Of a DNA stretch of 48,851 nucleotides, positions 12,565 through 29,444 are shown piece by piece. How positions within the stretch are numbered: the first letter of the stretch is position 1; the number at the start of each line of letters is the position of its first letter. Origin of the DNA: Enterobacter sp. R1(2018) (GTDB lineage: Bacteria > Pseudomonadota > Gammaproteobacteria > Enterobacterales > Enterobacteriaceae). Both the position numbers and the translations under genes were made by a program. The DNA lies in assembly GCF_003628475.1 (NCBI RefSeq), contig NZ_RCAA01000033.1, positions 100,453-149,303 on the forward strand, written 5' to 3'. Under the pieces are notes generated by a model that was not told the DNA's origin, did no database searches, and saw only the letters and a program-made list of their open reading frames with translations.

Positions 12565-13179
12565 ATGCTGGAAACCACTCTTTTTGTCGCCACCATTGCC
12601 ACATTGGGCATGCTCTCTCCCGGTCCCGATTTCTTTCTGGTGATAAAGAACGCCGCTCGCTACACGCGTTCGGCGGCGATGATGACCTCTCTTGGAGTGA
12701 TAAGCGGCGTGGCCACTCACATGACCTACTGCGTCGCCGGTCTTGCCGTCGTCATTACCACTACTCCGTGGCTGTTCGGCCTGCTGAAATATGCCGGCGC
12801 GGCATATTTAGTCTGGGTTGGCCTGCACGCTTTGTTCTCCCGCGGCGGCAGCAAAATGGACGTCAGCCAGATTGCTAGTCAGGAGACCACGCTTAAAAAA
12901 GCATTTCTGCAGGGCTATCTGTGCAACCTGCTTAATCCCAAAGCCACCCTGTTCTTCCTGTCGATTTTCACCCAGGTGTTAAGCGTCAATTCAGGCATGC
13001 TGGATAAAATGTGGTACGCGGGGGTTATTCTTATGCTCTCCGTTATCTGGTGGCCGCTGCTGGTGGTGTTAATCCAGAGCGCGCCGGTACGCCTTGGCCT
13101 CGCAAAAGCGCAGAAAATAGTTGATAAGCTGCTGGGCGGGATGCTGGTTGCGCTGGGAATTAAGGTCGCGCTGAGCTAA
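12565..13179 (+). CDS. LysE/RhtB-family amino-acid exporter
   Basis: The ATG at 12565 gives 204 residues, the usual RhtB/LysE family size (about 205). The upstream in-frame extension lacks the family start and covers the promoter region (TATAGT at 12529-12534). The N-terminus reads MLETTLFVATIATLGMLSPGPDFFLV; the SPGPDFFLVI motif is diagnostic of the family. Five or six hydrophobic segments follow, with CNLLNPKATLFFLSIF as the second conserved signature. Members export threonine, homoserine, lysine, leucine or cysteine; the substrate here cannot be told. E. coli has no such gene between folA and kefC as I recall. It is divergent from folA and convergent with kefC. Confidence 0.85.
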   Translation: MLETTLFVATIATLGMLSPGPDFFLVIKNAARYTRSAAMMTSLGVISGVATHMTYCVAGLAVVITTTPWLFGLLKYAGAAYLVWVGLHALFSRGGSKMDVSQIASQETTLKKAFLQGYLCNLLNPKATLFFLSIFTQVLSVNSGMLDKMWYAGVILMLSVIWWPLLVVLIQSAPVRLGLAKAQKIVDKLLGGMLVALGIKVALS

Positions 13180-21292: not shown

Positions 21293-21432
21293 GGCAGGAA
21301 GAATAGATATTTGTCTCATAGCGTCAATAAAAGTGGACCAGATGGTCAAAATTAACGTTGCGGCAACATAAAAGAAGAGGAAAAGTTGGATTTATAAGGC
21401 ATTGAAGAAGAAATTGTTATGTAGGACATAAA

Positions 21433-21460
21433 TAAAAAAGGGCAATAAATTATTGCCCTG
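21433..21460 (-). terminator. Rho-independent terminator of dapB
   Basis: AGGGCAAT (21439-21446) and ATTGCCCT (21452-21459) enclose an AAATT loop. Leftward transcription then runs into six T residues (complement of 21433-21438). It lies about 50 bp after the dapB stop and separates dapB from the carAB control region. Confidence 0.85.
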
Positions 21461-21511
21461 CCAATCAAAGCATTATGATTGCAATAACCACATCACGATG
21501 GGTAATAACGA

Positions 21512-22483: not shown

Positions 22484-23497
22484 CTATGATTGACCATAAC
22501 CGCAGGACTCGCGCACCACCAGCGTCGGCGGTAAAATTATGCGCTTTGGCGGTTCATCGTTACCCTGAATACGGCTGAGTAAAAGCTCGCCTGCTTTACG
22601 GCCAATCTCTTTCGCCGCCACGGAAACCGTGGTCAACGCAGGCTGTACCAGCGAGGCTTCGGTCACATCGTCAAAACCTACCAGCGCAAAATCCCTGCCG
22701 GGAACACGTCCCATCTTACGCAGCGTCTGCATCACACCGAGAGCAACGATATCCTGATAGCACACGGCCGCGGTAATCTGCGGGAAGCGTAAAAAAAGAT
22801 CTTCCGCCGCGCGGGCCCCATCGCTTTGCGACGCCTGCGAGGTAACGATCCACCCACTTTGCGGCTGAATATTGTTTTCCAGCAGTTTGCTGGTATAGCC
22901 ACCGATACGCTGGGCGCGGGTCGTGGAGCCCTGGCTGCCGCCGATAAAGGCAATATGCCGGTGCCCCAGCCTAATCAGATGCTGTGTCGCAAGCTGGGTG
23001 CCGAGGAAATTGTCCGTACCGACGAAATCAAAGGCCACGTCGTCAAACGGGCGGACAACCATAATGGCCGGGATATTTCGTCGCTTCAGGGTCTCGAAGA
23101 ACAAGGGGGAGGTTTCACGCGCCGCGCAAAGCACCATCCCACAGGCGTTGTTACGCATCAAAGAATCAACAAACTTCTGCTGCCGCTCGCCGGACTCCTC
23201 ACTGTTGGCAAGGAACAGCAGCAGATCGTGGCGCTCCATCTCATGGCTCAACCCCGCCGTCATCTCGCCGTAAAACGGGTTGGTAATGTCGTGAAGCAAG
23301 AGCCCGACCTGATTGCTGGTCCGGTTACGGAGATTAGCTGCGGTTTGATTGTAGACATAGCCCATTTCATCGAGCGCAAGAAGCACTCTTTGCCGCGTGG
23401 CTTCTGAAATGCGCCCCCGGTTACGCAATACCATCGATACCGTTGCGGTTGATACTCCTGCACGTTCGGCCACCTTTGCCAAAGTTACGGATGTCAT
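22484..23497 (-). CDS. LacI-family transcriptional repressor, probable local regulator of the PTS island
   Basis: 337 residues from the ATG at 23497, five bases after GAGGAG; a GTG two codons upstream would overlap that ribosome-binding site. The N-terminal helix-turn-helix with hinge (about 3-58) reads VTLAKVAERAGVSTATVSMVL, the LacI pattern, and YVYNQTAANLRNRTSNQVG leads into the periplasmic-binding-like effector domain. That domain has GLLLHDITNPFYGEM, FIGGSQGSTTRAQRI and ALVGFDDVTEASLVQPALTTV, typical of sugar or sugar-phosphate binding members. It is divergent from the PTS operon. Copies of a CG-centred palindrome, as LacI-family proteins prefer, lie in front of this gene, the PTS operon and the cupin gene pair. 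The effector is unknown, presumably the imported sugar or its phosphate. Confidence 0.93.
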   Translation of the reverse strand: MTSVTLAKVAERAGVSTATVSMVLRNRGRISEATRQRVLLALDEMGYVYNQTAANLRNRTSNQVGLLLHDITNPFYGEMTAGLSHEMERHDLLLFLANSEESGERQQKFVDSLMRNNACGMVLCAARETSPLFFETLKRRNIPAIMVVRPFDDVAFDFVGTDNFLGTQLATQHLIRLGHRHIAFIGGSQGSTTRAQRIGGYTSKLLENNIQPQSGWIVTSQASQSDGARAAEDLFLRFPQITAAVCYQDIVALGVMQTLRKMGRVPGRDFALVGFDDVTEASLVQPALTTVSVAAKEIGRKAGELLLSRIQGNDEPPKRIILPPTLVVRESCGYGQS

Positions 23498-23527: not shown

Positions 23528-23545
23528 AGATTAATCGAATAACCT
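23528..23545. promoter_or_regulatory. Operator copy 1, upstream of the repressor gene
   Basis: AGATTAATCGAATAACCT keeps the central CG and matches 14 of 18 positions of the perfect palindrome at 29427-29444. It lies about 30 bp before the repressor start and overlaps TAATCT on the minus strand (23533-23528), a possible -10, so autoregulation is likely. Confidence 0.65.
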
Positions 23546-23563
23546 AAAAATTGCATTTTCCAA

Positions 23564-23579
23564 TGTGAAACACATCACA
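23564..23579. promoter_or_regulatory. CRP-binding site in the divergent intergenic region
   Basis: TGTGA-AACACA-TCACA is the exact CRP core spacing, with both half-sites perfect (TGTGA-N6-TCACA). It lies between the two operators that flank the 197-bp gap, so it could activate the rightward PTS operon, the repressor gene or both when PTS sugars are scarce. Confidence 0.75.
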
Positions 23580-23649
23580 GATAACCGCCAGAAAAGCCCC
23601 TCTTTCGCAAAACTGGCGGGTTAATCATGTTTAGCACCCTGTTCATTAT

Positions 23650-23667
23650 CGGTTAATCGATTAATCT
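23650..23667. promoter_or_regulatory. Operator copy 2, upstream of the PTS operon
   Basis: CGGTTAATCGATTAATCT has the perfect 12-bp core TTAATCGATTAA (23653-23664) and matches 16 of 18 positions of the palindrome at 29427-29444. It lies 28 bp before the first structural gene and contains TAATCT, a possible -10, so bound repressor would block transcription. Its centre is 122 bp from operator copy 1. Confidence 0.78.
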
Positions 23668-23694
23668 AAAAGTAGGCATAACAGGGAGCCATTT

Positions 23695-25440
23695 ATGAAG
23701 CACGCAACGTATGATAAATACCCGGAAGTTCGGGTAAAAGGATGTGACGGCCAGGCCTGGCGCGGCTGGTCAGCTATTCAGCAGGCCATCGCAGCGCGCC
23801 TGCCGAAACAGCAAAAGACCGTGCTGGTCGTTGACTGCTATCCTGGCGTTCGTCTCGAAGAGCTTGAGCAGCAGCTGCTTAGCCATCTGAATCCGTCGCA
23901 GCTTATCAACGTCGAAACCGCACGCCACAGTGAAGAACAGCTTCACGATTTGCTCGCCGGCAATCTCACGGAAGATCGCGTGTTCGGCGTGCTCTCCTGT
24001 CACCAGCTTAGGGAGTTTTTCTGCGCCGGTAAGCTGGACGAGCTTACACAACAGGTTGAACAGGCCTGCGGTTTGACCGTGGTTTACGGGCCTGGCGCAT
24101 CGCTTGTTCATCCCGGCGATATTCTGGTTTATGCCGATCTTGCACGCTGGGAAATCCAGCAGCGCTTCCGCAGCGGCGAGCTGGGCAACTGGGGCGTGGG
24201 CAATGAGCAAGAAGATATTCTGCGCCGCTATAAGCGCGCCTTCTTTATTGAATGGCGTGTGTTCGACCGCCACAAAACGCCCTTGCTCAAACGCGCGGAT
24301 TTCCTGCTGGATACCAATCAACAACACGATCCCGCATTAGTCAGCGGCGAAGCCCTGCGCTGCGGCCTGCAGCAAACTGCTCAGCAGCCGTTCCGCGTCG
24401 TACCGTTCTTCGACCCGGGCGTCTGGGGCGGACAATGGATGAAAGACAAATTTGATCTCGATCCCTCGAAGCCAAATTACGCATGGTGTTTTGACTGTGT
24501 GCCCGAGGAGAACAGCCTGTTACTGCGTGTAGGTGACGTGCGGATTGAGATCCCCTCTCAGGATTTAGTGCTGCTTTACCCGCGTCCACTGCTCGGCGAG
24601 AAGGTTCACGCCCGTTTCGGCGCTGAGTTCCCCATCCGCTTTGACTTCCTGGACACGGTCGGCGGGCAGAACCTCAGTTTTCAGGTCCACCCGCTCACTG
24701 AATATATTCAGCAAAATTTCGGCATGCACTACACGCAGGACGAAAGCTACTACATGCTGGAAGCCGAGCCGGGTGCAGAAGTCTATCTGGGAACAAAAAC
24801 CGGCATCGATCCGCAGGCCATGCTCGACGATCTGGCTAGCGCGCAGCGCGGTGAAAAAGCCTTTGATGACACAAAATTCGTCAACCGCTTTCCCGCCCGC
24901 AAGCACGATCACTTCCTGATCCCGGCAGGCACGGTTCACTGCGCGGGTACCGGGACGATGGTGCTGGAAATCAGCGCCACGCCGTACATCTTTACCTTCA
25001 AGCTTTGGGACTGGGGCCGTCTGGGCATGGACGGGCTACCGCGCCCGGTACATTTGGATCACGGCAAGCATGTGATCGACTGGCAGCGTGATACCCGGTG
25101 GGTGACGGAGCACCTGGTCAACCGGTTTGAACCCCTTGCCGAAGGCGACGGCTGGCGAGAAGAGCGCACCGGCCTGCACGAGCGCGAATTCATCGAAACC
25201 CGCCGCCACTGGTTCAGCAAACCGGTACTTCACGATACGCATGGCGGCGTCAACGTGCTTAACCTCGTGGAAGGCAGCGAAGCGCTGGTTGAAAGTCCGA
25301 CCAACGCCTTCGAGCCGTTTGTCGTGCATTACGCCGAAACCTTTATTGTTCCGGCTGCGGTAGGCCAGTACCGAATTTCACCTTACGGCAGCGGCAAAGG
25401 ACAGCAGCTTGCCACCATGAAAGCCTGGGTCAGAGGATAA
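23695..25440 (+). CDS. Class I mannose-6-phosphate isomerase-like protein with an extra N-terminal domain
   Basis: 581 residues, much longer than E. coli ManA (391), preceded by CAGGGAG. The C-terminal half (from about residue 233) is a type I phosphomannose isomerase cupin. Its Zn ligands are visible as Q330 and H332 (LSFQVHP), E350 (DESYYML) and H415 (PAGTVHC). Other blocks are VPFFDPGVWGGQWMK and ISATPYIFTFKLWDWGRLG. Residues about 1-230 are not part of ManA: VLVVDCYPGVRLEELEQQL, then YGPGASLVHPGDILVYADLAR and YKRAFFIEWRVFDRHK, reminiscent of a P-loop kinase-like fold that has lost its GKS/T loop. I infer aldose/ketose 6-phosphate isomerisation of the PTS product; the substrate need not be mannose. 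EIIA starts 3 nt after the stop. Confidence 0.85.
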   Translation: MKHATYDKYPEVRVKGCDGQAWRGWSAIQQAIAARLPKQQKTVLVVDCYPGVRLEELEQQLLSHLNPSQLINVETARHSEEQLHDLLAGNLTEDRVFGVLSCHQLREFFCAGKLDELTQQVEQACGLTVVYGPGASLVHPGDILVYADLARWEIQQRFRSGELGNWGVGNEQEDILRRYKRAFFIEWRVFDRHKTPLLKRADFLLDTNQQHDPALVSGEALRCGLQQTAQQPFRVVPFFDPGVWGGQWMKDKFDLDPSKPNYAWCFDCVPEENSLLLRVGDVRIEIPSQDLVLLYPRPLLGEKVHARFGAEFPIRFDFLDTVGGQNLSFQVHPLTEYIQQNFGMHYTQDESYYMLEAEPGAEVYLGTKTGIDPQAMLDDLASAQRGEKAFDDTKFVNRFPARKHDHFLIPAGTVHCAGTGTMVLEISATPYIFTFKLWDWGRLGMDGLPRPVHLDHGKHVIDWQRDTRWVTEHLVNRFEPLAEGDGWREERTGLHEREFIETRRHWFSKPVLHDTHGGVNVLNLVEGSEALVESPTNAFEPFVVHYAETFIVPAAVGQYRISPYGSGKGQQLATMKAWVRG

Positions 25441-25443
25441 ACC

Positions 25444-25872
25444 ATGATCAATGTGATTTTTGCCACGCACGGCCCGCTGGCCGAAGCCATGATCGCCAGC
25501 GCCCGCATGGTGTACGGCGAGCTGGAACATGTCTTTCCCGTCGTTCTTAGCGAAACAAAAGGCATTAACAGCTTCCGCGACGAATTCGCCGCGGTGCTTC
25601 ATCAGGCCGGTAAAAATGCCGACGGCGTGCTGGTGCTGTGCGATTTACAAAGCGGTACGCCGTGGAACGTGGCCTGCCACCATGCATTCGATCCTGCAAG
25701 CCGCCCGCCGGTAGCGGTACTGGGCGGCGCGAACTTCCCGATGCTGCTGTTAAGCGATGACGTAAAAGAGCTGAAGGACGTCAACCAGGCTGCGGCAGCG
25801 CTGCTCGACCAGGCCAGAGAGACGATGGTACAAGCGCGCCTGGTCGAAACCGCTCCATCAGATGATTTTTAA
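25444..25872 (+). CDS. PTS system mannose-family EIIA component
   Basis: 142 residues; a stand-alone EIIA of the mannose/fructose/sorbose family (PF03610). It begins MINVIFATHGPLAEAM, with H9 as the residue phosphorylated by HPr. The segment VLVLCDLQSGTPWNVAC is the family's D-x-x-x-G-T-P signature around the active-site aspartate. It passes phosphate to the EIIB encoded 9 nt downstream. The ATG follows the isomerase stop by 3 nt, indicating one operon. Confidence 0.93.
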   Translation: MINVIFATHGPLAEAMIASARMVYGELEHVFPVVLSETKGINSFRDEFAAVLHQAGKNADGVLVLCDLQSGTPWNVACHHAFDPASRPPVAVLGGANFPMLLLSDDVKELKDVNQAAAALLDQARETMVQARLVETAPSDDF

Positions 25873-25881
25873 GGGGAAACG

Positions 25882-26376
25882 ATGAGCATTTCTTTTGTAC
25901 GTATTGACGACCGGGTCATCCACGGCCAGCTCGTCACCCGCTGGGCCAAAGAGCTGCCGTGCGACGGCATCATTGCCATTGATGATGCCGTCGCCGCCGA
26001 CCCCCTGCTCTCTTCCGTCATGAAGGGCGCGGTGCAGGATCTCAAAGTCTGGCTGTTTGACACGACGACGGCGATTGAAAAACTGCCGAAAATTATTGCC
26101 AGCGATAAACGCTACTTCGTCATTGGCAAGTCACCCGTAACGCTAAGGCGTATTGAAGAAGCAGGCATCAGCCTGCAAAACGGAAACCGTAAAATCAACG
26201 TCGGGCCCATGAGCGCCCGCGCCAACACCACCACCATTGGGCCGAACCAGGCGGTCAGCGAGGAGGAAGCCTCGGCATTCGATTACCTGGCGCAAAAGGG
26301 ACATCAGATTGAGTTCCGTCTGGTGCCGGATGCCAGCAGCTACGGCTGGCAGGAAGCCCGACTAAAAATAAAATAA
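25882..26376 (+). CDS. PTS system mannose-family EIIB component
   Basis: 164 residues, the usual length for stand-alone EIIB of the mannose/sorbose family (PF03830). The start MSISFVRIDDRVIHGQL contains the phosphorylated H14 in the DDRxxHGQ motif. KINVGPMSAR and AFDYLAQKGHQIEFRLVPD are family features. A strong AAGGGGA ribosome-binding site precedes it. It transfers the phosphate to the sugar as it crosses EIIC/EIID. Confidence 0.94.
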   Translation: MSISFVRIDDRVIHGQLVTRWAKELPCDGIIAIDDAVAADPLLSSVMKGAVQDLKVWLFDTTTAIEKLPKIIASDKRYFVIGKSPVTLRRIEEAGISLQNGNRKINVGPMSARANTTTIGPNQAVSEEEASAFDYLAQKGHQIEFRLVPDASSYGWQEARLKIK

Positions 26377-26386
26377 GGAATGAGCT

Positions 26387-27181
26387 ATGGCCTTTGAAGC
26401 TACATTAATCGGCATTCTCTGCTACCTCGGCGCGCTCAGCAGCCCCTGGCTGCTCGGGCTGACGGGAGGGTGGTATCTCATCTCCCGTCCGCTGGTATCG
26501 GGGATGCTGGTGGGGTTGATCCTCGGCGATGTGCAAACCGGGATTATTATCGGCGTGGCCGTGCAGGCGGTCTACATTGCGATGGTCACCCCCGGAGGTT
26601 CGATGCCGGCGGATCTCAACTTTGTCGCCTTCCCGGCGATTGCGCTGGGGATCTTATCCAATAAAGGACCAGAAGTGGCCGTGGCGCTGGCTGCGACCAT
26701 CGGCATTGCCGGCACCGTGCTCTTTAACGCCATGCTGGTTCTGAACTCATGGTGGAATCACCGCGCCGACGTGGCGCTGGAAAAAGGCGATGAACGGGGT
26801 ATTTACCTCAACAGCGCTATCTGGCCGCAGGTGACCAATTTCCTGATGCGCTTTGTGCCCACCTTTATCGCCGTCTATTTTGGCGCCCAATATATCAGCG
26901 CCTTTATGGACAGCCTGCCGCACATCGTCTTAGCCACGATGAACGTGCTGGGCGGCATCCTGCCCGCGGTAGGTATCGCCATCCTGCTTAAACAGATAAT
27001 CAAAAACTACAGCATGCTGATCTACTTCCTGGTGGGCTTTATCTGCATCGTGTTCCTGAAGCTCAACATGGTGGCGTTAGTGATCGTGGGCGCGCTGCTG
27101 GCGCTGATTCATTACAACTACAAGCCCGAGCCGCAGGTGGCAAGCGCGGAAAAACCGGCCGATGATGAGGATGAATTCTGA
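26387..27181 (+). CDS. PTS system mannose-family EIIC component (permease)
   Basis: 264 residues, hydrophobic almost throughout with about eight membrane segments (PF03609, EIIC sorbose/mannose type). SRPLVSGMLVGLILGDVQTG and VAVQAVYIAMVTPGGSMPAD form the conserved substrate-domain region. A charged tail (ASAEKPADDEDEF) ends the protein. The stop overlaps the EIID start by one base (TGATG), so the two membrane subunits are translationally coupled. Confidence 0.94.
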   Translation: MAFEATLIGILCYLGALSSPWLLGLTGGWYLISRPLVSGMLVGLILGDVQTGIIIGVAVQAVYIAMVTPGGSMPADLNFVAFPAIALGILSNKGPEVAVALAATIGIAGTVLFNAMLVLNSWWNHRADVALEKGDERGIYLNSAIWPQVTNFLMRFVPTFIAVYFGAQYISAFMDSLPHIVLATMNVLGGILPAVGIAILLKQIIKNYSMLIYFLVGFICIVFLKLNMVALVIVGALLALIHYNYKPEPQVASAEKPADDEDEF

Positions 27182-27996
27182 TGGAAGAACGTAAACTTAC
27201 CCGCCGGGATCTGCGCCGCTGCTGGCGCAGCTGGATGATGTACAACCTCTCCTCCATGAGCTTTGAACGCCTTGAGTCTTTTGGCTTTTGTCTGAGCATG
27301 CTGCCGGTGGCGAAAAAGCTCTACCCGGACGCGCAGGAACGCAAGGAGATGCTCAAACGGCATGCCTCGTTTTATAACACCGAGCCGCAGCTCGGCGCCA
27401 TCGTTAACGGTATGGTGCTTGGACTGGAAGAGAAGCGTGCCAACGGCGAGCCGATTGACGGCGAAACTATTAATACCCTGAAGGTGGGGCTGATGGGCCC
27501 GGTTGCCGGGATCGGCGACTCCATGATCCCCGGCATGCTGATTCCTATCCTGCTGAGTATCGGCATGGCGCTGGCGGCAGGCGGAAATATTCTCGGGCCG
27601 CTGTTTTACTGCGTGGCCTGGCTGGCGATAATCATTCCCGGTTCGTGGTTCCTGTTTTTAAAAGGGTACCGCATGGGCTCGACGTCCGTTGAAATGCTGG
27701 TCAGCAGCAGGTCAACACGCCTCAGGGAAGCGCTTTCCCTGCTGGGCGTATTCGTGATGGGCGGCGTAGCGGCAAGCTACGTTAAGCTCGGCACCGGGCT
27801 GGAGTTCGTCACCAAAGACGGCGTGAACATCCATCTGCAACAGATGCTCGACGGCATCTTCCCGCAGCTGCTGCCGCTGCTGGTTGTCATCGGCACCTGG
27901 TATCTAATGGCCAAACGGGGAGTTTCTCCGGTGAAAGCTATGCTGCTGCTGTTAGTACTGGCCGCGGCTGGCGTGGCTGTTGGTCTGTTTTCTTAA
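27181..27996 (+). CDS. PTS system mannose-family EIID component (permease)
   Basis: 271 residues (PF03613). EIID occurs only in the mannose class of PTS. The amphipathic N-terminal part reads KLTRRDLRRCWRSWMMYNLS and FYNTEPQLGAIVNGMVLGLE. The signature MGPVAGIGDSMIPGMLIPI is complete. The C-terminal part has several membrane segments. It is the last gene of the operon and is followed by a strong hairpin. No sugar kinase, aldolase or dehydrogenase is encoded in this operon. Confidence 0.94.
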   Translation: MEERKLTRRDLRRCWRSWMMYNLSSMSFERLESFGFCLSMLPVAKKLYPDAQERKEMLKRHASFYNTEPQLGAIVNGMVLGLEEKRANGEPIDGETINTLKVGLMGPVAGIGDSMIPGMLIPILLSIGMALAAGGNILGPLFYCVAWLAIIIPGSWFLFLKGYRMGSTSVEMLVSSRSTRLREALSLLGVFVMGGVAASYVKLGTGLEFVTKDGVNIHLQQMLDGIFPQLLPLLVVIGTWYLMAKRGVSPVKAMLLLLVLAAAGVAVGLFS

Positions 27997-28014
27997 TGCT
28001 TTTCTGAGGCTTTT

Positions 28015-28040
28015 AACGGGTGGCGCAACGCCACCCGTTT
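28015..28040. terminator. Stem-loop between convergent EIID and cupin operons
   Basis: AACGGGTGGCG (28015-28025) pairs perfectly with CGCCACCCGTT (28029-28039) around a CAA loop. It sits between the EIID stop (27996) and the stop of the leftward cupin gene (28046). The U-tracts are short (TTTT before, TTT after), so termination in both directions is likely but not certain. Confidence 0.78.
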
Positions 28041-28045
28041 CATCT

Positions 28046-28828
28046 TTAGGGATGAAAATTCACCCACTTCTCCCTCGCCATTCCCGGCTTTGAAATAAAC
28101 TGAAAGCGTGCAGGATCGTCAATAAACTGCTGATACAGCGGTTCATTTGTGATGCCAAACTCGCTGTACCTGCGCGGTGAAGTCACCTGTAGTCGTCCCG
28201 GCAAATAATGCCGGTTATGCTGCCAGGCTATATGTTCATCCTGTAAGAGCGGATACCAGGCCAGACCTTTGTACGCGCGCACGGCATCGTACTCGAAACC
28301 ATATTCCCGATCGCACCAGGCGCCAAACGTCAACGGCTCATCCGGCGAGGCGGAAATTGTGGCGTGCGCCCAGCCGGGCGGCACCAGCACCTTCTCGCCC
28401 GGCCCTGCATAAACGGCGAAGCAGCGGCCGGGGTCATCGGCCACATATTCCTGCATGTAGATAATCGCTTTACCCTGCCAGATTTCATAAAGCTCAGGCG
28501 GCGACCAGCCGCTGTGCTCGCTGATACGGTGGATGTGCCCCTGGCTGCGGATCGGCTCATCGCCCAGTCGTCCGCTGGCGTACGTCACCACGCCGAACAA
28601 CAGCATGCGCTTTTTCAGCTCTTCGCGATCCTTCAGGCGGGCCACGTCCATGACTATCGCATAAACATCTTCCGGCCCTTCGCATTGAGGATCTCTTAAC
28701 GAGGCGCGGATCCGATCGAGCTTGCGGATCTCAGGCAGCGGGCCGATCACTTCTTCGCCGTAGCTAAATCCCATCGGCGAGTGGTGAATCGCCATATCCA
28801 GGCCAAAGTTGCAGGGCTGCTTAGCCAT
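28046..28828 (-). CDS. Cupin glucose-6-phosphate isomerase-like protein (archaeal PGI type), second of a pair
   Basis: 260 residues from the ATG at 28828, with AGAGGTG upstream; 13 further in-frame codons overlap the previous gene. It resembles the cupin phosphoglucose isomerase family (PF06560), unrelated to the usual Pgi. The metal-site motif is GHIHRISEHSGWSPPELYEI, with HxH and the later E, and a second His comes in PPGWAHATIS. Compared with its neighbour it has a longer N-terminal part and a longer spacing between HxH and E (insert SGWSPP), plus about 60 extra C-terminal residues. It could interconvert an aldose- and a ketose-6-phosphate; the substrate is unknown. The start overlaps the preceding gene by 8 bp. 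Confidence 0.78.
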   Translation of the reverse strand: MAKQPCNFGLDMAIHHSPMGFSYGEEVIGPLPEIRKLDRIRASLRDPQCEGPEDVYAIVMDVARLKDREELKKRMLLFGVVTYASGRLGDEPIRSQGHIHRISEHSGWSPPELYEIWQGKAIIYMQEYVADDPGRCFAVYAGPGEKVLVPPGWAHATISASPDEPLTFGAWCDREYGFEYDAVRAYKGLAWYPLLQDEHIAWQHNRHYLPGRLQVTSPRRYSEFGITNEPLYQQFIDDPARFQFISKPGMAREKWVNFHP

Positions 28829-29384
28829 TTTGCACCTCTTTAGCCTGAACCTTGCCGTCGCGCTCAAAAACTCTTACGGCAAAACCACGCGTCAGCGAAG
28901 CGTAATCGTGCCCGGCAACACTCGGCCAGACGGCCAGCGCACGGAGAACGTCATTACCGGTATTAATCAGACGGTGGGCCGTGAAGCCCGGAATAATATG
29001 AATGGAACCCGGCGACACGGGCTCCAGGCGGGCTTTGCCCTGCTCATCTTCCAGCAGCAGCAGACCGGTACCTTTTAATCCAAAATAGACTTCCCCCTGT
29101 TCCCGACGCCGATGGAAATGCCCGCGCGTCATATAGAATTCATCCCCTATACGACCAGGCTGTAAATGCGTAACGCCGACGTACAGCTCCCCTTCTCCTT
29201 GCATAGAATCCAGCATTTCTACTTCGTAGACAGGGGTATCCGGCGGGGTTGCCCGCCATGAAACAGGATCGTGAAACACGCCGCTTAGATCGCCGCAACG
29301 GGTCACTTTTTTTATCACATTATCGGCCGAAAACAGGCCGGTCAGAAACGCCACGCCTGGCGGCAGGGTAAAAGAGATGCTCAT
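28821..29384 (-). CDS. Cupin glucose-6-phosphate isomerase-like protein (archaeal PGI type), first of a pair
   Basis: 187 residues from the ATG at 29384 (MSISFTLPPG), with GGAGA upstream; the frame runs six codons further. The size matches cupin phosphoglucose isomerases such as those of Pyrococcus (about 189 residues). The signature TRGHFHRRREQGEVYFGLKG holds the HxH and E metal ligands, followed by IIPGFTAHRLINTG with the last His. It probably isomerises a sugar 6-phosphate. A perfect operator palindrome lies 43 bp before the start, over the -35 to -10 region, so the same LacI-type repressor should control it together with the PTS operon. Confidence 0.82.
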   Translation of the reverse strand: MSISFTLPPGVAFLTGLFSADNVIKKVTRCGDLSGVFHDPVSWRATPPDTPVYEVEMLDSMQGEGELYVGVTHLQPGRIGDEFYMTRGHFHRRREQGEVYFGLKGTGLLLLEDEQGKARLEPVSPGSIHIIPGFTAHRLINTGNDVLRALAVWPSVAGHDYASLTRGFAVRVFERDGKVQAKEVQNG

Positions 29385-29418
29385 TGATTTTCTCCGGCCC
29401 AAGGAGAACAGCGAAGTC

Positions 29419-29444
29419 AGTATAAACGGTTAATCGATTAACCG
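29419..29444 (-). promoter_or_regulatory. Operator copy 3 (perfect palindrome) and promoter of the cupin pair
   Basis: CGGTTAATCGATTAACCG (29427-29444) is an exact 18-bp palindrome. Immediately downstream on the minus strand lies TATACT (29424-29419), a good -10. The operator fills the -35 to -10 spacer, which explains the lack of a clear -35 and implies direct repression. It is the same motif as the two copies 5.8 kb away beside the repressor gene. Confidence 0.8.

Follow-up and report, generated by a model that had tools for sequence, protein, structure and literature searches.

Three operator-like palindromes probably place two convergent mannose-type sugar operons under one LacI-family repressor in Enterobacter sp. 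R1(2018)

What joins two convergent sugar operons that carry the same palindrome at their promoters? A stretch of 48,851 nucleotides from Enterobacter sp. R1(2018) (contig NZ_RCAA01000033.1, positions 100,453 to 149,303; hereafter the window) harbours an island with a LacI-family repressor gene, a divergent operon for a ManA-like protein and a mannose-family phosphotransferase system (PTS) and, facing the latter, an operon of two cupin genes, cupA and cupB. One CG-centred palindrome occurs three times, i.e. as O1 on the repressor-gene side, O2 before the ManA-like/PTS operon and O_cup before cupA (Table 1). Taken as a whole, the island is very likely best explained by a MalI/RbsR/PurR-like repressor with a three-site local regulon for mannose-type sugar use. 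The sequence itself shows the sites, their near-confinement to the island, their joint conservation with the repressor gene and the fixed layout O1-CRP-odd-O2; the motif is real and probably functional, and the two operons and the repressor probably form one locally controlled unit for mannose-containing sugars.

Table 1. Genes, operators and further elements of the island (positions refer to the window)
Feature	Position	Strand	Sequence or basis
LacI-family repressor gene	22484..23497	-	337 aa from ATG 23497, GTG 23503 also possible; Pfam LacI helix-turn-helix and Peripla_BP_3
O1	23528-23545	strandless	AGATTAATCGAATAACCT, 14/18, repressor-gene side; 16-mer core 23529-23544 = GATTAATCGAATAACC
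CRP-type site	23564..23579	strandless	TGTGAAACACATCACA, 10/10 consensus positions; centre 35 bp from O1, 87 bp from O2
Odd-spaced operator-like element	23619..23635	+	GGTTAATCATGTTTAGC, 31.5 bp upstream of O2; close-relative consensus GGTTAATCGCGTTAACC
O2	23650-23667	strandless	CGGTTAATCGATTAATCT, 16/18, upstream of ManA-like/PTS operon; core 23651-23666
ManA-like gene	23695..25440	+	581 aa; residues 1-225 P-loop-kinase-like fold, 230-581 phosphomannose isomerase fold
Mannose-family PTS EIIA	25444..25872	+	PF03610
Mannose-family PTS EIIB	25882..26376	+	PF03830
Mannose-family PTS EIIC	26387..27181	+	PF03609
Mannose-family PTS EIID	27181..27996	+	PF03613
Terminator-like hairpin between the convergent operons	28015..28039	+	consensus match only
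CupB, glucose-6-phosphate isomerase-family cupin	28046..28828	-	PF06560, E 1.5e-17; weak match to archaeal-type phosphoglucose isomerase
CupA, cupin-type glucose-6-phosphate isomerase relative	28821..29384	-	PF06560, E 1.4e-22; phosphoglucose isomerase structures, best E 2e-39
Possible -10 hexamer TATACT of cupA promoter	29419..29424	-	read by eye, just downstream of O_cup
O_cup	29427-29444	strandless	CGGTTAATCGATTAACCG, 18/18, perfect palindrome upstream of cupA-cupB; 16-mer core 29428-29443

The operator consensus is the 16-bp CG-centred palindrome GGTTAATCGATTAACC. On recount, the coordinates and match counts that a first-pass annotation had given for the three sites (18/18, 16/18 and 14/18, with O_cup a perfect palindrome) were exact, as was the distance of 122 bp between the centres of O1 and O2. 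As an 18-mer, the motif matched the window twice at up to three mismatches, against 0.02 matches expected in shuffles, and O1, with four mismatches, was the sole additional site at up to four. The 16-mer gave exactly three window sites at up to two mismatches, whereas none of 190 control palindromes with a shuffled half-site reached three (maximum one). The genome scan called for by the same annotation, for matches before many unrelated genes, came out negative: in the 4.13 Mb source genome, estimated to be 96 % complete, GGTTAATCGATTAACC was found at four places at up to two mismatches, i.e. at O1, O2, O_cup and at GGTTAAGCGAATAACC inside a coding sequence, and the reversed control at none. 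We take the reading frame around the fourth place to encode a putative TerC-like membrane protein, a reading made without family-search confirmation. A chance origin of the three sites was thus ruled out by the window shuffles, the control palindromes and the genome-wide rarity, and so was a wider regulon, since the intragenic fourth place adds no further member in the source genome.

The sites also travel with the repressor gene. Both the exact pattern GRTTAATCGAWTAAYC and the repressor protein were searched for in 99 relatives, the window's own genome included, and a repressor orthologue of at least 78 % identity was found in nine, again counting the own genome, with the next best protein at 43 %. 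All nine carried exact operator sites, every one within 7 kb of the repressor gene, compared with one of the 90 relatives lacking an orthologue, where a single site was found (G088). The strict pattern overlooks diverged operator forms; two loci with ManA-like proteins at 51-53 % (L188 and L189) have sites with one or two mismatches upstream of the ManA-like gene. One of the nine orthologue genomes (G059) contains a broken repressor copy with a stop at residue 135. Its locus (L214), in which the ManA-like gene is in three pieces and only the left half of O2 is left, with O1, the CRP site and the odd element still present, is a decaying copy of the island.

On the cupin side, 82 loci with a repressor of at least 50 % identity were sampled, giving 56 distinct regions upstream of cupA after 15 loci with no cupA in the stretch covered, two edge-cut loci and nine duplicates had been removed. 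The operator was perfect in seven of these, had one mismatch in 38 and two in six (51/56 at up to two mismatches), while the reversed control never fell below five mismatches (0/68 regions, duplicates and repressor-less stretches being kept). CG-centred palindromes are therefore found at the repressor gene and at the adjacent sugar operons and in few places elsewhere, as in a local LacI-family regulon, and because the same sites hold the same positions in dozens of related bacteria, the operator signal is a real one. The claim of the first-pass annotation that such a regulon extends over both operons is borne out by the rarity of the motif, the co-occurrence (9/9 versus 1/90) and the conservation before cupA. 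The two operons do lie tail to tail, as had been noted; the 5.8 kb said to separate them is the distance between their promoters, not between the operons, the PTS genes ending at 27996 and the facing cupin genes at 28046. At cupA, the simplest interpretation is that the bound repressor would block RNA polymerase, because O_cup lies directly upstream of the possible -10 hexamer TATACT, and similar hexamers stand at about the same place in many of 24 loci compared. A conserved GTTCTCCT(T/C)GGGC(C)GGAG-like stretch before the cupA start (29376-29416), kept in relatives, could pair with the ribosome-binding site; a structured cupA leader was dropped as a candidate, the RNA of the window folding no better than shuffles (z 0.22).

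While the three sites named at first stand, the set was incomplete: a CRP-type site and an odd-spaced pair of half-sites of the form GGTTAA-N5-TTAACC lie between O1 and O2. To follow this arrangement we drew on a related-loci search (best 80 of at least 586 relatives) and on genome searches for the ManA-like protein, positive in 12/394, 55/392 and 5/37 genomes of overlapping sets, and compared 88 oriented loci, i.e. the window, 34 gammaproteobacterial loci and 53 stretches from the genome searches. Six without a divergent adjacent repressor of at least 50 % identity in the stretch covered and 13 exact duplicates were set aside, which left 69 distinct repressor-divergent regions. The O1-O2 spacing was 121-123 bp in 49, 130-132 bp in 16, 112 bp in one and 73 bp in one, with no O2 found in two; 66 of the 69 thus have the pair at 112, 121-123 or 130-132 bp, including one with a weak and doubtful O2 (L222). 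The 73-bp case, from Photobacterium (L030), is a mis-picked O2, a site with three mismatches lying at 132 bp.

The CRP site, which would bind CRP, was scored against the ten consensus positions and reached 9 or more throughout the 122-bp class (48 regions). Wherever it scored at least 8, in the 122- as in the 131-bp class, its distance to O2 was 86-88 bp, and that to O1 varied (34-36 or 43-45 bp). Conservation in the 122-bp class amounted to 2.0 and 1.85 bits per base in the outer blocks of the odd element, 1.91 in O2, 1.23 in the CRP site and 0.43 in the spacer between CRP site and odd element; the corresponding figures for the 131-bp class are not comparable there, its regions being unaligned on the shifted odd element. 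The O1-CRP-odd-O2 order and spacing, read from these alignments, is a rigid and uncommon operator layout.

In the window alone, significance of the odd element was rejected, as GGTTAA-N5-TTAACC at up to two mismatches has 275 places in the genome (reversed control 53). The tighter pattern GGTTAATCNNGTTWANC occurred in 24 of the 99 relatives, i.e. in 9/9 with the repressor gene and 15/90 without (reversed control 6/99). The weight of the element rests on its position and conservation. In 65 regions (the doubtful L222 being excluded) it was found at up to two mismatches within 60 bp of O2 in 64, against 0.15 expected in shuffles; the exception is Pantoea conspicua (L011), where the repressor frame is uninterrupted up to its end and the element takes an N6 form free of mismatches. 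Among the 69 regions, the centre of the element lies 31.5 bp from O2 in 50, 32.5 in eight, 30.5 in four and 33.5 in two, with single cases at 21.0 (L011) and 20.5 bp (L222) and three in which the script missed it. A 6-base gap also passes at two mismatches in 48/65 regions, because a G precedes the element; at one mismatch the 5-base gap alone passes, in 56/65.

The same conservation might stem from the geometry of RNA polymerase and CRP, the odd element being a part of the PTS promoter rather than a repressor site, with either GTTAAT as -10 and CRP near -60.5 or TTAACC as -35 paired with a -10 in O2. A CRP site centred about -60.5 would be at a canonical activating position, and the constant CRP-O2 distance beside a varying O1-CRP distance, the conservation reaching past the dyad (TG.CGG before, CAC.CT after) and the presence of the same loose sequence in 15/90 relatives without the repressor all fit such a promoter. 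However, both half-sites are kept as an inverted repeat and are identical to the operator half-site, and the odd element reappears at a second promoter in another Enterobacter locus (L014, below). In the L011 region, moreover, the N6 form at 21.0 bp from O2 breaks the -35/-10 pairing and keeps two whole turns, although this is one case and the region also lacks a CRP site. We therefore give the promoter alternative some credence, yet lean against it.

The main mechanism could also be looping repression of the gal or lac type, with O1 and O2 brought together. The repressor is without the lac-type tetramerization helix, ending at residue 337 with its LacI alignment stopping at LacI residue 327 of 360, and the seven orthologues listed end at residues 333-337; in this it resembles GalR, which has no LacI-type tetramer tail. 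The O1-O2 spacings fall into three groups, 112, 121-123 and 130-132, in steps of about 10 bp, as a loop would favour, and in gal, according to PMC4693257, GalR binds each operator as a dimer and the 113 bp between them are looped with HU. The spacing clusters are mostly clade-wide, however, with three class changes on a tree of 67 repressors (L011 and L214 being omitted for a stop in the aligned stretch, which in L011 marks the normal terminus of the protein, at residue 332 of 333), and 122 bp correspond to 11.6 turns at 10.5 bp per turn. The O1-O2 spacing is clearly conserved and its phasing may hint at looping; with spacing classes so few and clade-wide, we do not claim helical phasing as proof. 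A loop as the main mechanism seems to us possible, though on the doubtful side.

The local repressor itself is a LacI-family protein with PF00356, PF13377 and PF00532 above cut-off, i.e. an N-terminal helix-turn-helix and a periplasmic-binding-protein-like core, and its recognition helix STATVS and hinge are near-invariant in 67 orthologues. Its best NCBIfam match was MalI (NF007449) at 308.7 bits, 1.3 bits short of the cut-off of 310; with a score under the cut-off and an operator unlike that beside a MalI-like gene of the same genome, it does not qualify as a MalI equivalog. It is highly improbable that a different LacI-family protein of the cell, e.g. MalI, is the one that acts at these sites. 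LacI paralogues do recognize similar CG-centred palindromes (PMC4052901), and the genome has a 40 %-identical MalI-like gene. By eye, however, we read GATAAAACGTTTTACC and GGTAAAACGTTTTATC beside that gene, two palindromes 79 bp apart with a different half-site, and a genome of the same genus (G005) has a 38 %-identical MalI-like gene and neither the local repressor nor the operators. Because the MalI-like gene has its own pair, the half-sites used by the two paralogues seem to differ, i.e. GGTTAATC in the island versus the G(A/G)TAAAAC type.

Systems of this kind are well known; the mix of even and odd operator spacing is uncommon. The island shares with MalI/malXY of Escherichia coli a LacI-family repressor beside a PTS operon and a 16-bp site at both promoters (PMC5543585), from which it differs in its other cargo, the extra odd element and the convergent second operon. 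In gal, too, two operators flank a CRP site, at 113 bp (PMC4693257) versus 122 bp here; a divergent gene pair and a third, odd-spaced element set the island apart. As to the LacI-family local sugar regulons of RegPrecise, Ravcheev et al. 2014 (PMC4052901) describe even CG-centred palindromes, inter-site peaks at 13, 22 and 32 bp, frequent autoregulation and a category 'mannose and mannosides', all of which the island recalls. Odd palindromes are given there for 4 % of LacI-family regulators and spacing is described as usually constant within an orthologous group, flexibility being rare, whereas in the island a single control region mixes even with odd spacings.

Which sugar, then, would such a regulon serve? 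The ManA-like protein as a whole had no Pfam or NCBIfam match. Its predicted structure (mean predicted local distance difference test score, pLDDT, 93.6) places residues 230-579 on 1qwr_B with Z 33.0 and a root mean square deviation (rmsd) of 2.5 over 308, i.e. a type I phosphomannose isomerase fold with predicted activity. Residues 1-225 (23695-24369), folded alone, gave a pLDDT of 93.5 and resemble pantothenate/uridine kinases (best Z 12.8, rmsd 3.7 over 184); by eye, their sequence shows no Walker A loop of the usual kind. CupA and CupB both contain the cupin-type phosphoglucose isomerase domain (PF06560), and their activity is likewise predicted. Full-length ManA-like relatives occur in many phyla. 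In the 46 of the best 80 of at least 586 related loci that lie outside the Gammaproteobacteria, 16 have at least one cupin relative nearby, ten have both and 30 have none, and the joint occurrence in 16/46 lends support to the single pathway postulated at first pass. A Dysgonomonas locus (L064, Bacteroidota) contributes a ROK kinase as well as a GH2 enzyme that has mannosidase domains. From the cupin/ManA-like neighbourhoods, the mannosidase-domain enzymes and the modelled phosphomannose isomerase fold, mannose-type sugars are the likely substrate, and gene context points to mannose 6-phosphate.

Several observations weigh against so coherent a picture. Shared ancestry explains part of the conservation; 15 of the 82 repressor loci show no cupA in the stretch covered, and 5/56 cupA regions have only matches with three to six mismatches. 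In the 131-bp class the CRP site scores at least 9 in just 7 of 16 regions, and none was found in the control region of Pantoea conspicua (L011). The odd element of the window is imperfect, with two mismatches, and nearly invariant in close relatives. A simple promoter scan called no sigma-70 promoter at the PTS or cupA control region, and the start sites are therefore guesses. The chemistry of ManA and glucose-6-phosphate isomerase duplicates housekeeping enzymes, no mannosidase is encoded in the window, and the substrate is read from neighbouring genes.

A three-site local regulon accommodates the data as follows. The repressor would bind GGTTAATCGATTAACC at all three sites. Without inducer it would repress its own gene from O1, the operon of the ManA-like and PTS genes from O2 and the cupA-cupB operon from O_cup; the PTS promoter would be covered by O2 together with the odd element, and the -35/spacer region of the cupA promoter by O_cup. 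The inducer may be a phosphorylated sugar, e.g. mannose 6-phosphate or a mannoside 6-phosphate, and in a shortage of preferred sugars CRP would activate the PTS operon. EIIABCD, the protein with the phosphomannose isomerase fold and the two cupin isomerases would then import mannose-type sugars and isomerize them to glycolytic hexose phosphates. A repeat spotted by eye thereby becomes a well-bounded regulon with a candidate repressor, an operator, a co-activator site and a likely pathway, for genes that previously had generic family names only. The conserved four-part layout, whose natural variants differ in spacing by about one helical turn, provides a test system for a tail-less LacI-family protein with several operators around CRP, and the motif should be useful for finding mannoside genes and for working out what the ManA-like fusion protein and the accompanying cupins do. 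The 16-mer GGTTAATCGATTAACC was not found in the text of the literature searched, nor any title or abstract on this locus, subscription journals and supplementary tables lying outside that search.

The layout is also met a second time. In Enterobacter sp. kpr-6 (L014), a full module lies between cupA and an operon with PTS and glycoside hydrolase family 38 (GH38) genes, with an O at 12832, CRP at 12866, the odd element at 12921 and another O at 12953. Relative to the repressor-side module of the same locus, identity is 69-94 % in its elements and 39-47 % in the three spacers, and the layout has therefore outlasted the spacer sequence. In another locus (L020), PTS/GH38 genes follow directly behind the repressor-side module, and GH38 genes occur in 14 of the 88 loci, some genomes being counted twice and two of the genes checked with hidden Markov models (HMMs). 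The PTS and GH38 proteins of L014 and L020, which thus adjoin the operator module, are relatives of MngA and MngB of the 2-O-alpha-mannosyl-D-glycerate system, though far under the equivalog cut-offs (655 vs 1138 bits for the L020 GH38 protein, 427 vs 763 for the L014 PTS protein) and without counterpart in the window; in the known mng system, control is by a GntR regulator. It is tempting to speculate, with a confidence somewhat short of even, that a tail-less LacI-family repressor uses 16-bp even and 17-bp odd operators, combined with a CRP site in a rigid module of four parts (O, 35 bp, CRP, 55.5 bp, odd O, 31.5 bp, O), and that this module is a portable cassette which returns at another divergent promoter, its spacers having diverged, and places a mannoside-type PTS/alpha-mannosidase operon under the same repressor.

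Further variation was seen in the cargo of related islands. The PTS gene of L020 (3395-4336) encodes a short MngA relative of 314 aa that comprises EIIA and the last part of EIIC; next to it lies a GH38 gene of full length. A lactose/cellobiose-type EIIC gene and a GH1 glycosidase gene stand between the EIID gene and cupB in L018 (11452-14151), and because no operator at up to two mismatches precedes them, the PTS operon may continue into these genes. Two loci, L035 from an Aeromonas and L031 from a Vibrio, yielded no cupB; in both, a gene of the N-acylglucosamine 2-epimerase family lies behind the PTS genes (11427-12590 in L035, Pfam-checked; 11998-13122 in L031, by resemblance of its start), perhaps as an alternative isomerization step.

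With regard to distribution, the 401-bp control region had no match among 5,426 complete E. coli genomes, and 11 plasmid records gave partial matches at 65-70 % identity. One record titled Escherichia coli (SCPM-O-B-8794, L019) carries the island; since no complete E. coli genome matched the control region of the window, the species name of this record may be wrong. Several relatives keep the neighbours flanking the island, which we take to be dapB/carA and rihC/ispH (only RihC being HMM-checked), and a match to the DapZ RNA family lies near dapB, on the minus strand at 21430-21506.

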